From: Thiothrix subterranea
GTDB taxonomy: Bacteria > Pseudomonadota > Gammaproteobacteria > Thiotrichales > Thiotrichaceae
Direction: 5' to 3'
Assembly: GCF_030930995.1 (NCBI RefSeq)
Contig: NZ_CP133217.1
Location: 744,001 to 808,000 of the forward strand
DNA length: 64,000 nucleotides
Positions 47,468 through 54,843 of this stretch are shown here, piece by piece. The notes below the pieces were generated by a model. It saw nothing but the letters and a program-made list of their open reading frames with translations, did no database searches and was not told the origin of the DNA. Made by a program: the position numbers and the translations under genes. The stretch's first letter is position 1. Each line of letters begins with the position of its first letter.

Positions 47468-47971
47468 TTAGCTGAAGCAGCCCAGTAGCATGTCTAGTTC
47501 TGGGATCTGCTCACGCTTTTGCTCAAGAACCTGTATGCCAAGCCTATCTTGGTAGGTCATTTCATCCATCAAGTCACCCCCGAAAATTCTGGCACAAACC
47601 TGTTTACACTCTTCCGAACGGTGTGGCGGCGTATGCCCTAAAATACGCAGTAATAACCCTTCGATACAGGGCGTTGCACCAATCAGGGTGATGTTCCATT
47701 TTTTGGCACGTTCGCGGGCTTCTTTCGACCATTCAACATCCGTATCCATCAGAATAGCGACACGATCATAGGCGTGATTCTTGATGATATTTTCGGTGTA
47801 GCGCACGATAGCTTCGGGGCTGCCACCTGTTGCTGAACGGATGGTAATGGCTAAACCAGAACCACGTTGCCCGTACAGGTTTTTGAGGTGTTTCAGGAAT
47901 GCCTTTTCTGTTGCGCCTTCACCCATGATCAGGATGGTGCGATTAGCTTTGCGCTTTTTTACAGTTGCCAC
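47468..47971 (-). CDS. RloB-like TOPRIM-type protein, partner of an AAA ATPase
   Basis: A 167-residue protein resembling the RloB family. It has a TOPRIM-like pattern: Gly17-Glu18-Gly near the start and Asp76-Thr-Asp78 after a hydrophobic strand, which would bind Mg for nicking or nuclease activity. A Thr-Pro-Cys-Ile-Glu segment follows near residue 101. GTG 47971 is favoured (AGG 8 bases upstream) over TTG 47986. The gene follows directly on the ATPase gene and is likely its effector, as in ATPase/TOPRIM defence pairs. Confidence 0.7.
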   Translation of the reverse strand: MATVKKRKANRTILIMGEGATEKAFLKHLKNLYGQRGSGLAITIRSATGGSPEAIVRYTENIIKNHAYDRVAILMDTDVEWSKEARERAKKWNITLIGATPCIEGLLLRILGHTPPHRSEECKQVCARIFGGDLMDEMTYQDRLGIQVLEQKREQIPELDMLLGCFS

Positions 47972-47982
47972 GCGATTACCTG

Positions 47983-49185
47983 TCAAAGATTGGGGACTGC
48001 GCCATACGCGCCGGAGCGGTATTTAGCATACAAATTATCATCACGGCGCACGCCTTCCATATCGCTGAGCAACCACGCTTCGCTGTTTCCTTGCGGGTCT
48101 TTCTCTACCAACAACACTTGATCTTTGCTCAACATTTCCAGAATTTCGTGTGAATGCGAACTGAAAATAAGCTGTGCTTGCTTGGGGTTGGTGGCTGGAT
48201 TGATGAACAATTCCAGCAGTGGTACTAACATATCAGGGTGTAAATCCGCTTCCAGTTCATCAATGACAGCAACGCCGCCCAAGGTCAAAGCAGGCAATAA
48301 AATACTCAGTAACGTGTAAGCGCGTTGTGTGCCACTGGATTCACGCCACAATTCCAATTGGCGTTCTGCTTGTCCATTGTGGTGAATCCCGTAAGGCACG
48401 CTGATTTCGGTACTCTTCTGGGTTTTGGGGTCAGTGACGGTTTCAGATTTGATGATGACTGCCTGCAAGCCCAAATCGAGTTTGCACAGCAAGTCAGAGG
48501 CTTGTCTGCCCAACGATTTGTTGCGCTGAAACACCTCGGTCACTTCCAGTAGTTCATCAATACGAGAAGCGGTGGAGACGCGCCCAAGGCTATTCACGTT
48601 GGTGAAAATCTTGCCGCACACCAGCCGCATTTGCGTGGCAAGCTCTACCCCGTATTGCGCCGCAGTAGAAATCAGGCTGGCATTCTGGCGTACCTTGGCA
48701 GCTTCTTTCCTGTCAAAGCCGAAATCTTTTTGGGCGATATTGTATTGGTGGGATGTTTCGTCCCATTCCCGCTTAAAGATATAGCTGTACAGCTTGCTGG
48801 TTTTGACGAATAACGCTTCGTAGACCACCTGTTGCTTGTTCAGGGTAAGTTCGTAGCGGTACAACTGCCCTTGATAGTCGAACACTATCTGGAAGGTGGA
48901 ATTAGGGTTTTCGCTGAAAAAATGGTGTTCGATAGGGATGTCGTCATTCGGCTGTTGCGCAGAAAAAGAATCGGCAACAAACCACTGCAAAAAAGCCAGT
49001 GCTTTCAATACATTGGTTTTCCCCGAAGCATTTGGCCCGATAACTGCCAACAACTTGCTCAATCTGTCGCCGGTATCGGCAATGCAGGACAGGTCATTCT
49101 TCGGACTCTGCCCGTTCAGCACGCAAGAGACTTCTACCGTTTCCGCGAACGAGTAAAAATTTTCAAATTTGAATTGATGTAGCAT
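47983..49185 (-). CDS. AAA_15/AAA_21-type ATPase of a RloA-like two-gene system
   Basis: A 400-residue ATPase with an SMC/ABC-like head: Walker A Gly50-Pro-Asn-Ala-Ser-Gly-Lys56-Thr57, a signature-like Arg-Glu-Ser-Ser-Gly-Thr-Gln-Arg near residue 278, Walker B Val-Ala-Val-Ile-Asp-Glu-Leu-Glu (about 300) and a D-loop/His segment Ser-Ser-His-Ser-His near 343. There is no fused TOPRIM as in OLD proteins; the TOPRIM-like function is in the next gene. Such pairs (RloAB, PARIS and others) mostly act in phage defence. A good ribosome site was not seen. Confidence 0.8.
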   Translation of the reverse strand: MLHQFKFENFYSFAETVEVSCVLNGQSPKNDLSCIADTGDRLSKLLAVIGPNASGKTNVLKALAFLQWFVADSFSAQQPNDDIPIEHHFFSENPNSTFQIVFDYQGQLYRYELTLNKQQVVYEALFVKTSKLYSYIFKREWDETSHQYNIAQKDFGFDRKEAAKVRQNASLISTAAQYGVELATQMRLVCGKIFTNVNSLGRVSTASRIDELLEVTEVFQRNKSLGRQASDLLCKLDLGLQAVIIKSETVTDPKTQKSTEISVPYGIHHNGQAERQLELWRESSGTQRAYTLLSILLPALTLGGVAVIDELEADLHPDMLVPLLELFINPATNPKQAQLIFSSHSHEILEMLSKDQVLLVEKDPQGNSEAWLLSDMEGVRRDDNLYAKYRSGAYGAVPNL

Positions 49186-49324: not shown

Positions 49325-51388
<2,064 letters not shown>

Positions 51389-51547: not shown

Positions 51548-52594
51548 ATGACGACTAAAAGTGTTTATGTATCGTATTCATGGACTGCGGAGCGGGAAAC
51601 AACTCCTTTGGTTGACGAGCTTGCATGTGCCTGTGCTGAAGCTGAAATAGATTTCCTATTTGATAAAAAATGCCTAAAACATGGCGATCTTATCCGTTCA
51701 TTTATGGATGAACTAAGTAGTAATGGCAATATCATTCCTATTTTCAGTCAATCTTATTTCGAGTCAGATTACTGTATGTATGAGCTGCTAAGTATTCTAA
51801 AAAATGGTAGCTTTCAACATCGAATACATCCGGTCAGATTAGATGATATTAAAAGAATAGACGATCCAATGTTTCATTTAAGTATTATTGGGTATTGGAA
51901 AAACAAGGTAATGATGTTGGAGAGTAAGCTTAGCGAACATGATGTTGGCGTTACAATAGAGTTACAGAGAATTCGCGTTGTCTATGCTGAAATCTATCGT
52001 CATTCAGGAGAATTACTGAGCTTTATTAGTGATATGGTTATTCTACCATTAAGTCAACTAAGGCTTCAGAAGTTCAAACCTATTATTGATCGTATCATTG
52101 TTAATGAAAAAAACGCTGCTAAAAAATCGACAGATTTGAGTGTGAGTTTCTTGCCAGATGCGAACATAAAATTTTCAAAAATTAAAATCAATCATATAAC
52201 TAAAGAACTGAACGCACTTAAGTTAAGCTATGATTCTGAATATAAGGATGTAGTGAGTTGGCTCTCCAAAGATAAGACGATTCTCATTGAAATAATATAT
52301 GATCAGCTCATCGAAAAAGTTGGTGCGATTTTAAATAAAAAAGGATCTCCAGCAACAACTAGCGAGGTTGGCTTATTTAAACTTGATCTTGCACAATACA
52401 TTGAACAACTGGAGGTTTGTCTTTTGGATGATGATACTGATTTGTTAGATAGCCCTCATTTTAAAGTCAACATTAAGCATGAATTTTATGAAATGGCTTT
52501 GTCTATGCTTTTTGATCGAGTTCCAAGCTCTGTATCTGAAAAGTCAAAATCACAATTAAAATATTATATGACTTATTTGATCAAAACGATTTAA
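51548..52594 (+). CDS. TIR-domain protein with an unknown C-terminal domain
   Basis: A 348-residue protein. The N-terminal TIR_2-like domain (residues ~5-125) starts Val-Tyr-Val-Ser-Tyr-Ser-Trp and has the putative catalytic Glu79 in a Tyr-Cys-Met-Tyr-Glu-Leu segment, as in NAD-cleaving bacterial TIR domains. The remaining ~220 residues are helical and unknown, and may sense infection or mediate assembly. The gene is far more AT-rich than its neighbours, and it lies between two copies of a 65-bp repeat. ATG 51548 is chosen over TTG 51530. It may act alone or with the small coiled-coil gene downstream. Confidence 0.78.
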   Translation: MTTKSVYVSYSWTAERETTPLVDELACACAEAEIDFLFDKKCLKHGDLIRSFMDELSSNGNIIPIFSQSYFESDYCMYELLSILKNGSFQHRIHPVRLDDIKRIDDPMFHLSIIGYWKNKVMMLESKLSEHDVGVTIELQRIRVVYAEIYRHSGELLSFISDMVILPLSQLRLQKFKPIIDRIIVNEKNAAKKSTDLSVSFLPDANIKFSKIKINHITKELNALKLSYDSEYKDVVSWLSKDKTILIEIIYDQLIEKVGAILNKKGSPATTSEVGLFKLDLAQYIEQLEVCLLDDDTDLLDSPHFKVNIKHEFYEMALSMLFDRVPSSVSEKSKSQLKYYMTYLIKTI

Positions 52595-52604
52595 GATTAT
52601 TTGT

Positions 52605-52631
52605 GACGCCCCACTTTAAATGAGGGGCGTC
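52605..52631. terminator. Hairpin between TIR and coiled-coil genes, possible bidirectional terminator
   Basis: GACGCCCC and GGGGCGTC pair perfectly around an 11-base loop just after the TIR stop and before the end of the convergent small gene. No T-tract follows on either side, so termination would be weak. Confidence 0.5.
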
Positions 52632-52653
52632 ATTCCAATAAAAATACAACATT

Positions 52654-52821
52654 CTAAATTGAATCAATAAGATCATTTATCTCTTGCTTGATGTCCTCTA
52701 GTTTTGATAATAACTCTTGTCTTTCTTGCTCATTATGGAAATTGCGAATATCCATTTCAAGTAAGAATAGTTTTCTTTCCAACTTCTGTTTACGTGTTGT
52801 GAGTTGCGATAATTTAGACAT
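52654..52821 (-). CDS. Small coiled-coil protein, 55 residues
   Basis: An ORF of 56 codons including stop, with AAGGGG 8 bases before ATG 52821. The product is highly charged, with a heptad-like pattern of Leu/Ile across almost its whole length (Lys-Leu-Glu-Arg-Lys-Leu-Phe-Leu-Leu-Glu at 13-22, then Leu-Leu-Ser-Lys-Leu-Glu-Asp-Ile near 37-44), so a single coiled coil is expected. It is convergent to the TIR gene inside the same repeat-bracketed cassette and shares its low GC. It may be a partner or inhibitor of the TIR protein; no family is recognised. Confidence 0.6.
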   Translation of the reverse strand: MSKLSQLTTRKQKLERKLFLLEMDIRNFHNEQERQELLSKLEDIKQEINDLIDSI

Positions 52822-53021
52822 AACAAACCCCTTGTGTGCTTAAACAATAAAATAGATCGGTTGCAAGCAGACGCCCCAAGATGGTCATTATGCAAGTCCG
52901 AACCATCCATTGATCTGGCAAGTGGCGAGCAGTTGGAGAATCTTGTAGCTGCTTACTTTGCTGTAGACAGGCAATATTTTCATAAGTTCAGCTAATGTTA
53001 ATTATATTCATAATTTTTTTC

Positions 53022-53086
53022 TATTTGAGCAAGCCTATCGACCCTGCCGGGTTGGTAACGATGCTGGCGAAGTGGGTAGTCGTGGT
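53022..53086 (+). repeat. 65-bp direct repeat, right copy
   Basis: A perfect copy of 51320-51384 standing alone between the cassette and the hsdM fragment. In the kinase frame it would also end cleanly (two extra codons, then TAG), so either copy could be the original gene end. Confidence 0.95.
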
Positions 53087-53127: not shown

Positions 53128-53357
53128 ATGACCGTTGCCAAACTCACCCTTGCCCGCCTTGAATCCCTGTTGCTGACTGCCTGCGACGATTTGCGTGGCA
53201 ATATGGATGCCAGTGAATACAAGGAATACATTTTCGGGATGTTATTCCTCAAGCGTGCCAGCGATTTGTTTGAGCAGCGCCAGACAGAAATTCGCCAACA
53301 ATGCGTTGCCGACGGTTTGAGTACCGCTGATACCCAGATTGAGTTGGATGACCTGTT
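53128..53357 (+). pseudogene. hsdM: N-terminal fragment of a type I restriction methyltransferase HsdM
   Basis: About 75 codons of the HsdM N-terminal domain, with [13 protein letters not shown] and [10 protein letters not shown], the usual opening of this family (full length ~500). Likeness stops near 53350, where the convergent 74-codon gene ends; the reading frame stops at 53388. The methylase body, hsdS and hsdR are absent. The break is older than and separate from the IS3 insertion 60 bases on. Confidence 0.8.
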
Positions 53358-53415
53358 TCAAACCCCACTTTTTGTCAAAGTGGCGTGATAAAAATCTGCA
53401 ACAGCGACCACTGAC
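53358..53415 (-). pseudogene. 3' part of a 74-codon small gene split by IS3
   Basis: The last 19 codons or so, ending in TGA at 53358-53360. Joined to 54674-54843 with one copy of the 3-bp target duplication removed, the frame is exactly 225 bases (74 codons plus stop). The restored tail has a Val-Ala-Asp-Phe-Tyr-His-Ala segment. Confidence 0.7.
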
Positions 53416-53483
53416 TGATCTAGCCCAGCAAACCCGGACACCCCAAGAAGTGAGTACACTATACTCGACACTTGAGGTGAAAG

Positions 53484-53780
53484 ATGAAACCAAGCAAACC
53501 GACCACCAAGCCCTACACACGCCGTTCCGAGAGCTACAAAGCGGAAGCCCTGAAACTAGCCGATCGAATCGGTTACACGGAAGCTGCGCGTCAATTGGGT
53601 TTACATGAATCGCAACTCTACGGCTGGCGAGCCAAACAGTCGCATCAACAAACGGTTAGCAGCCGCGAACAAGAGCAAGCGGCTGAAATCGCGAAACTCA
53701 AACGGGAACTGTTGATAGCCCAAGAAGAGGTGGCTATCCTAAAAAAGGCCAGCGCGTACTTTGCGAGACAGCTCAAGTGA
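53484..53780 (+). CDS. IS3 family transposase OrfA
   Basis: A 98-residue protein: N-terminal helix-turn-helix ([12 protein letters not shown] near residue 34) and a C-terminal leucine zipper that mediates dimerisation. A slippery AAAAAAG at 53741-53747, near the end of the gene, should drive -1 frameshifting to make the OrfAB transposase. Alone, OrfA modulates transposition. Confidence 0.92.
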
Positions 53781-54646
53781 AGTACGCTTTTATTCAACAA
53801 CATAGCCGTGAATTCTGCATTCCCCGCCTGTGCCAAGCATTGGGTGTTGCCCGCAGCAGTTACTATGAATGGCTGGAGCGACAATCCAACTATCGGCAAC
53901 GTGAGCAACGCCAGGCATCACTCGATACTCAGGTTGCCGCCGCCTTCCAGTCCAAGAAAGGCTGCTATGGCGCATGGCGTTTATGTAAACTATTGGCAAA
54001 GGATGGGCAGCATTACAACCGCAAAACCATTGCCAACAGCTTGAAACGTCAGGGATTAGTCGCCAAAGCAGCGCGGAAATTCAAGGCAACCACCCATAGC
54101 CGCCATTCGTTGCCAGTGTCGCCCAATCTGCTGGAACAGAACTTTACCGCGACCGCCCCAAATCAGAAGTGGGTCGGTGACATCACTTATTTGTGGACAG
54201 ACGAAGGCTGGCTGTATCTGGCTGTTATCATTGACTTATTTTCCCGTCAAGTGATTGGTTGGGCAATGGATCAACGCATGACCGCTGATTTGGTTGGTGA
54301 TGCTCTGCAAATGGCACTTTGGAAACGTAAACATCCCAAGGGCGTGATTGTCCATTCCGACCGTGGCAGCCAATATTGCTCCCAAGCTTACCAACAACTG
54401 ATACAACAGCACCAACTGCATGGCAGCATGAGTGCCAAAGGCAATTGCTATGACAACGCCTGCGCCGAAAGCTTTTTCCATTCCATGAAAGTAGAATGCA
54501 TCCACGGTGAACGCTTTGCCACACGGGATGCCATGAAACAAACCGTTTTCGAGTACATCGAAACCGATTACAACCGTCACCGCTTGCACAGTACCTTGGG
54601 CTATCTCAGCCCGCTGGACTTTGAAGCACAATTCCTCACAAGTTGA
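53777..54646 (+). CDS. IS3 family transposase OrfB (DDE integrase domain)
   Basis: A 289-residue protein with an HTH_21-type region (Tyr-Gly-Ala-Trp-Arg-Leu) and an rve integrase core. The DDE residues are Asp in Val-Gly-Asp-Ile-Thr-Tyr-Leu, Asp in His-Ser-Asp-Arg-Gly-Ser-Gln-Tyr, and Glu in [10 protein letters not shown], with normal spacing. It overlaps orfA by 4 bases in the -1 frame and is normally translated as the OrfAB fusion. Confidence 0.93.
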
Positions 54647-54673
54647 GGTGTCCGGGTTTAATGGGCTAGATCA

Positions 54674-54843
54674 GACTTCGCTACAGGAAGCACGGCAACA
54701 GCCTTGGAGTAGGCGATGAACTCATCAACTGTCACACCCTCAAAGTCCTCAACTTCCAGATAGTCTGCCAGAAAGTCATCAACGCTAAGATTGCTAAAAA
54801 ATTCATTCATCAGTTCTAATGATTTTGTGTGTGCCAGATTCAT
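54674..54843 (-). pseudogene. 5' part of a 74-codon small gene split by IS3
   Basis: 56 codons from ATG 54843, with AAGGAGAGG upstream, until the IS3 end; translation then picks up five IS-derived residues and stops. The product is acidic, with Asn-Glu-Phe-Phe-Ser-Asn-Leu-Ser-Val-Asp-Asp-Phe near residue 13-24. Intact length would be 74 residues. No family is recognised; size and composition would suit an antitoxin, or a peptide precursor. Confidence 0.65.

Follow-up and report, generated by a model that had tools for sequence, protein, structure and literature searches.

The window, a stretch of 64,000 nucleotides from the genome of Thiothrix subterranea (NZ_CP133217.1, positions 744,001 to 808,000), contains a pair of convergent genes that encode a TIR effector of 348 residues (51548..52594, forward strand) and a small coiled-coil protein of 55 residues (52654..52821, reverse strand; all coordinates are those of the window). 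The TIR gene was assigned from its open reading frame and translation, its match to the TIR_2 family and the alignment of its start with the starts of its relatives, and the small gene from its open reading frame, its counterparts at two other loci and a control survey of gene ends (see below). The two genes are 59 nt apart, and between them lies a GC-rich hairpin (52604..52632, inverted repeat I18; the fold of 52601-52640 has -19.0 kcal/mol), which is probably a shared terminator and is not among the calls of a terminator scan. A likely ribosome-binding site read from the sequence, AAGGGG (52828..52833, reverse strand), stands 6 nt ahead of the ATG of the small gene, and hydrophobic residues recur at heptad spacing in its product (as judged by eye). 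A sequence-only reading of this DNA had described an intact TIR gene that retains its glutamate at position 79, together with a convergent 55-residue coiled coil, and both parts of that description are borne out.

Residues 6-107 of the effector match TIR_2 (PF13676) with an E-value of 6.2e-10 and 40.1 bits against a Pfam cut-off of 28. A whole-protein search of 57 genomes returned ten matches on the TIR side besides the protein itself, six of which span residues 3-5 to 183-194 (the four weaker ones end by residue 130), and five of the six longer matches were aligned with the window's protein to give a set (n = 6) from the window, four other Thiothrix genomes and one genome of another genus in the same family (G032). 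This alignment contains 27 invariant columns, among them Glu79, which lies in the motif YCMYEL (codon 51782-51784, forward strand) and is present in all six modules, as well as Asp181 and Ile183 at the distal end of the module. Since the C-termini of the five relatives differ (approximately 300 residues in three, short in two), the alignment marks out a TIR module of ~185 residues (residues 1 to ~185, 51548..52102, forward strand) that is constant and is joined to differing tails. At three loci (L010, L013 and L015), related TIR modules carry C-termini of ~300 residues in which the sole Pfam match is weak and sub-threshold.

TIR NADase effectors carry a WCxxE-like motif with a catalytic-type glutamate, and the module in the window may be an NADase or the maker of an ADP-ribose signal. 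Two PADLOC models match this part of the protein weakly, PDC-S66 over residues 6-88 (E 6e-6) and bSEFIR over residues 1-71 (E 9e-6), and no ThsB match to it was found in PADLOC at E-values up to 1. The 4.4-Mb genome from which the window derives contains 16 TIR_2 matches, an unusually rich TIR set. An AF2 model of the full-length protein, built on a two-row alignment, was set aside (pLDDT 49, with 229 of the 348 residues below 50).

The C-terminal 220 residues, which the sequence-only reading had found to match nothing, resolve differently: residues ~110-185 belong to the TIR module, and residues 213-348 (52184..52591, forward strand) form a separate domain with a phycobiliprotein-like predicted fold (hereafter the PBL domain), the evidence for which comes from profile searches, profile-profile comparison and an AF2 model. 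Two relatives of this domain were found. One is the C-terminus of a 443-residue alpha/beta hydrolase of T. caldifontis (NZ_FNQP01000027.1; 42 per cent identity), the hydrolase part of which matches PGAP1 (E 1.5e-7) and the PADLOC model DUF626_VIII (E 7e-33), which we take to be a retron type VIII effector; no literature linking DUF626_VIII with a retron was found. The other is a protein of the Thiothrix genome G004 (38 per cent identity), in which the frame ahead of the PBL domain encodes a TIR domain that lacks its start and retains its C-terminal part (TIR_2 matched from profile position 44 onward, at 28.4 bits with the cut-off at 28; PADLOC ThsB1, E 8.6e-24); this ThsB-like TIR gene lies downstream of a transposase-like ORF, identified by eye. 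The PBL domain is thus seen in three effector contexts, behind a TIR domain in the window, a ThsB-like TIR domain in G004 and an alpha/beta hydrolase in T. caldifontis, and on the evidence of these sequences it is a modular unit in front of which the effector swaps.

The domain is rare. Profile searches found it in 3 of 63 genomes of the order, all of them Thiothrix, and, in genome draws that overlap with this one, yielded nothing convincing beyond the window among 369 genomes of the class and the window only among 398 genomes of the phylum. One match in the class search (E 0.009) falls inside a protein resembling TPR repeats and was read as chance. A scan of GTDB contigs confirmed 1 of 91 candidate stretches, the T. 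caldifontis locus, and no match to the domain was found among plasmids. Viral relatives were not confirmed in IMG/VR with any of the queries used (A1, the TIR protein, the TIR module alignment A3, the hydrolase fusion and the G004 protein), and a structure search of viral models returned nothing below E 0.5, its matches including two long phage proteins at E 0.58-0.61 with a Foldseek probability above 0.9. The known PBL loci are therefore three, in a single genus. The domain reaches none of the curated cut-offs of Pfam or NCBIfam and has no PADLOC match, so that it is unclaimed by any described TIR-associated family; the idea that the C-terminal part belongs to no known TIR-associated family with some other partner accordingly stands in these three collections.

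The PBL domain very probably has a phycobiliprotein (globin) fold, a prediction for which several searches have to be combined, none of them being decisive singly. When a profile of the three PBL sequences was compared with 177,635 PDB sequences, the best match was a phycoerythrin alpha chain (E 0.016, 111 of 133 positions). Of the Pfam families, only Phycobilisome (PF00502) is matched by all three members, below the cut-off (E up to 5, best 0.016; the window's domain scores 15.4 bits, below the gathering score of 22.2), and a search of 57 genomes with PF00502 at E 0.05 found nothing. The NCBIfam CpeA model, 164 positions long, aligns to the hydrolase protein over its positions 40-161 (E 0.013). 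In a comparison by hhalign with an alignment of 12 phycobiliproteins from cyanobacterial plasmids, the PBL alignment reached a probability of 94.6 per cent and a score of 51 over 130 collinear columns; the best of 100 column-shuffles scored 17.2 (0 of 100 as good) and the reversed alignment 12.7. Single domains gave 40 for T. caldifontis (88 per cent), 30 for G004 (44 per cent) and only 22 for the window (5.6 per cent). Against the same 12 phycobiliproteins taken one by one, the three-row PBL profile separated four clearly (26.8-29.8) from the best of 128 decoys (19.53, counted after removal of 15 proteins, namely the three PBL proteins and the 12 phycobiliproteins), four by margins of 0.01 to 2.4 (19.54-21.95) and four not at all (17 or less; three CpeB and one ApcB).

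The structural comparisons point in the same direction. An AF2 model of residues 195-348, built on 2 sequences, has a pLDDT of 77 and a pTM of 0.73, the five models spanning pLDDT 77 to 40. The best 50 of 777 Foldseek matches in the PDB are, by title, phycobiliproteins, phycobilisome chains and bilin-protein-like fluorescent proteins (best E 7e-3), the entry at rank 39 having a de novo backbone design. In VIA-align, the top score is Z 14.7 (122 residues aligned at 3.7 A) and is still Z 13.7 at row 50, and all of the best 50 entries bear titles of phycobiliproteins or fluorescent proteins; these scores are to be read with the program's own caution that helical models can reach Z ~14 through a common arrangement. 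The position of the bilin cysteine is occupied by phenylalanine in all three members (Phe277 in the window; both alignments agree), and in place of CXRD the sequence is F[KQ]L[DH]. Heme oxygenase (PF01126) and bilin reductase (PF05996) are unmatched in all three carrier genomes, whereas 3 and 1, respectively, of 14 control genomes have a match. Judged from these residues and gene contents, the PBL domain probably carries no pigment.

The small gene has a counterpart at each of the other two PBL loci. In T. caldifontis, a 45-codon ORF (MSKLDQLTKEYHELERQL...) and the hydrolase gene converge, with 43 nt between the ORF and the hydrolase stop, and in G004 a 47-codon ORF (MSRLETLIKRLHQLQREL...) lies, likewise convergent, 50 nt past the stop of the PBL-domain gene. 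A convergent coiled-coil gene of 45-55 codons is thus found at three of three PBL loci, 43-59 nt away, and the outcome that the sequence-only reading had named as counting against its idea, a small gene not conserved with the TIR gene, did not arise. All three ORFs start with MS[KR]LxxL, have a GGGG-type site ahead of them and show hydrophobic residues at heptad spacing (by eye), and beyond this start and the heptads the proteins have little in common. With filters off, tblastn found the T. caldifontis ORF at E 0.005 (four loci from an earlier weak search gave 0.007-0.025) and missed that of G004, which was found by position only. The sequence similarity among the three, as far as alignment can judge, is modest and by itself not significant, and the pairing of small gene and PBL domain accordingly follows from position, not from sequence similarity.

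The position itself was assessed in a control survey of 188 ends of open frames of at least 150 codons (mechanical frames) in ten stretches of the genus, some of which overlap. A convergent ORF of 40-70 codons no more than 150 nt away, with E, K, R, Q, D or N making up half or more of its residues and with a ribosome-binding site, was found at 4 of the 188 ends, the thresholds having been chosen after the three small genes were known; these four are the three PBL loci, that of the window being counted twice via an overlapping stretch, and none of the other 184 ends has such an ORF. Searches with the small protein as a single sequence returned no match among phages and, in 57 genomes, the protein itself and otherwise E 0.09 or worse; the latter search missed the two counterparts. 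A three-row profile at E 1 matched 61 of 76 genomes, mostly noise, and its best matches besides the three loci are three partial ones in genome G002 (E ~1e-4). One of these falls in a phage-like run of HTH genes (by eye; L081:1348-1593), and the short coiled coil at the end of that run (...SKLDELTRKKHQLERELKELERKKKKEQKP) is similar to the N-terminus of the small partner.

The TIR block has a GC content of 34 per cent versus 51 for the window, a difference that suggests recent acquisition, and is flanked by perfect direct repeats of 65 bp (51320..51384, at the 3' end of a histidine kinase gene, and 53022..53086; both forward strand). In G006 the kinase gene with the repeat is joined directly to the start of hsdM, and in G001 it is followed by 60 bp in common with the window's left junction and then by a Uma2 gene; a Uma2 gene also lies downstream of the TIR block in the window. 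By comparison of these sequences, the site at the 3' end of the histidine kinase gene is a variable hotspot. The idea that the two genes form a mobile cassette equipped to integrate itself was rejected, since inspection by eye showed no integrase-like ORF within the span bounded by the 65-bp repeats and since each alternative junction is found by itself, one in G006 and the other in G001. An AbiL-like pair stands upstream of the kinase gene (47468-49185); its RloB-like and AAA_21 ATPase genes match PADLOC AbiLii and AbiLi (E 1e-9 and 7e-78, respectively). Downstream of the TIR block (53128-54674), an hsdM remnant (an 86-codon ORF with HsdM_N) adjoins an element judged by eye to be of IS3 type, which has 40-nt inverted repeats at 53415 and 54635. 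In T. caldifontis the hydrolase-PBL gene belongs to a type I restriction locus, where it is flanked by hsdS (by eye) and a 91-codon hsdR-like ORF (HSDR_N E 6e-4, below the cut-off). Between the hsdM and the hydrolase gene of that locus (L032:2512-8287, L037) are DUF1016-like and Fic-like genes, also identified by eye.

The sequence-only reading had suggested a two-gene unit built around the TIR effector. The pairing gains support from the presence of the small gene at three of three loci and from a domain unclaimed by any described family, but the TIR domain as the constant part is not supported: what is constant at these loci is the PBL domain with the small gene, and what varies is the effector (TIR, ThsB-like TIR or hydrolase). 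The preferred reading, to which we give a probability of about 0.5, is that the TIR-PBL gene and the small coiled-coil gene form a two-gene, defence-type effector unit. Phycobiliproteins form ordered oligomers. TIR enzymes act when clustered, the TIR-STING filament being one case (PMC9402430). The simplest reading is that the small coiled coil blocks or drives such assembly. In such a unit, the PBL domain would be a module of protein-protein assembly and control rather than a light antenna, and the small protein would bind it, most likely via the coiled-coil helix ahead of the globin core, and thereby set whether effectors assemble. That it holds the effector inactive rather than activating it is slightly favoured; phage infection, or loss of the small protein, would then free the TIR module, which would cluster, consume NAD+ and stop the cell. 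Regulation by the PBL domain and the small protein, as well as antiphage activity, is what we infer from this arrangement. A broader proposal, which is offered tentatively, is that the phycobiliprotein fold, familiar from light-harvesting antennas in which it forms rings and rods, may have been recruited in non-photosynthetic bacteria as a chromophore-free assembly switch for immune effectors, with interchangeable killers (TIR NADases, a lipase-like hydrolase) and a coiled-coil controller of 45-55 residues making up a stand-alone two-gene antiphage system.

Other roles for the PBL domain have to be weighed against this unit. The domain could be a homotypic adaptor of the effector-associated (EAD) type, recruiting the TIR module to a core NTPase sensor encoded elsewhere, with the small gene being secondary. 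A small, helical, non-catalytic terminal domain on several types of effector is what passages of the EAD papers describe (PMC7159879; PMC8195603), and the 16 TIR_2 matches in the genome also count in favour of this explanation. The same passages include a second copy of the domain on the core component, however, and no second PBL copy on a core NTPase was found in a profile search to E 10 of the three carrier genomes, where the remaining matches have E-values of 0.2 or worse; this explanation seems unlikely. It is somewhat more doubtful still that the globin-like domain is a ligand sensor that gates the effector in response to a tetrapyrrole, biliverdin or a fatty acid, with the small protein merely aiding folding or assembly. 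Phycobiliprotein relatives of the BBAG-2 group occur in heterotrophs and still bind biliverdin without a CXRD motif (according to passages of PMC10151467), and to this extent the altered motif would be compatible with a ligand; against it stand the phenylalanine at the bilin position and the F[KQ]L[DH] sequence of all three members, as well as the three genomes in which the two heme and bilin enzyme families searched are unmatched.

The small gene, in turn, could have another meaning. In a plain toxin-antitoxin pair, the TIR fusion would be a constitutively active toxin and the coiled coil its antitoxin, with no sensing of infection, and the presence of two genes, a small partner and a conserved pairing would be as expected. 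Convergent orientation is unusual for a toxin-antitoxin pair, however, and at all three loci the genes are convergent and share no operon, different from the co-directional operon of type II systems; moreover, the effector types match defence effectors in PADLOC, and the T. caldifontis copy is part of a type I restriction locus. A plain toxin-antitoxin pair has a low probability. Least probable of all is that the convergent ORF is fortuitous, or that the region yields an antisense or terminator-region transcript instead of a protein. Short low-complexity coils arise easily and the three-way similarity is as modest as noted above, but the agreement of all three loci in the MS[KR]L start, the ribosome-binding site and the place, and the 0 of 184 other control gene ends with such an ORF, speak against it.

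The proposed two-gene unit would consist of an effector, an adaptor and a small regulator, with a fold that, as far as seen, is not reported in an adaptor role. No link of phycobilisomes or phycobiliproteins to TIR or defence was found among the matches listed in the open-licence PMC literature, and the words phycobilisome and globin are absent from the main text of the two EAD papers (PMC7159879; PMC8195603). The known immune adaptor domains (death folds, EADs and the C-terminal domains of ABC-3C systems) are few in fold, and a bilin-free phycobiliprotein-like adaptor, if true, would be a new fold for the joining of effector and trigger. It would also be a non-photosynthetic role for a lineage whose origin is under study (the BBAG work, in passages of PMC10151467), and so small a system (two genes, one of them of 45-55 codons) would allow direct tests of effector control. 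The combination of PBL domain and convergent coiled coil is, in addition, a handle for locating further such systems.

Compared with the phycobiliproteins (PF00502) and BBAGs, the PBL domain has the same predicted globin fold across its whole length and the collinear profile match of 130 columns, but differs in its fusion to effector enzymes, its long coiled-coil-like front helix (seen by eye), its score below the Pfam cut-off, its lack of the bilin cysteine and a carrier genome without a match to the two bilin enzyme families. The TIR part of the window's protein is matched by PADLOC PDC-S66 and bSEFIR, yet neither reaches the PBL domain and both also match related TIR proteins with other tails. 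With Thoeris there is likeness in the TIR half of the G004 protein and its ThsB1 match, but the window's TIR module has no ThsB match and the PBL domain lies outside the matched part. PrrC-type guards sit inside type I restriction operons, as does the T. caldifontis copy between hsdS and the hsdR-like gene; here, however, the effector is another one, the arrangement is seen at one locus only, the hsdR-like ORF is short and the window has merely an hsdM remnant nearby. There is also a parallel with ABC-3C effectors bearing CTD9 (PF20285), where the same alpha/beta hydrolase module carries a C-terminal adaptor domain. Among the 20 matches listed of 26 records, six are annotated as such effectors, and of these six, three loci were taken for comparison. 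In all three the protein ends in CTD9 and is followed by middle component 5 and then by an annotated ATP-binding protein, whereas the PBL loci have the coiled coil of 45-55 codons in place of these partners. CTD9 was considered as the family of the PBL domain and rejected (hhalign score 9.6, probability 0.07 per cent), and Pfam scans found none of the ABC-3C CTD families on the PBL effectors. The hydrolase module is thus shared and the adaptor is not: effectors of known conflict systems are coupled here to another adaptor and to a gene for a coiled coil.
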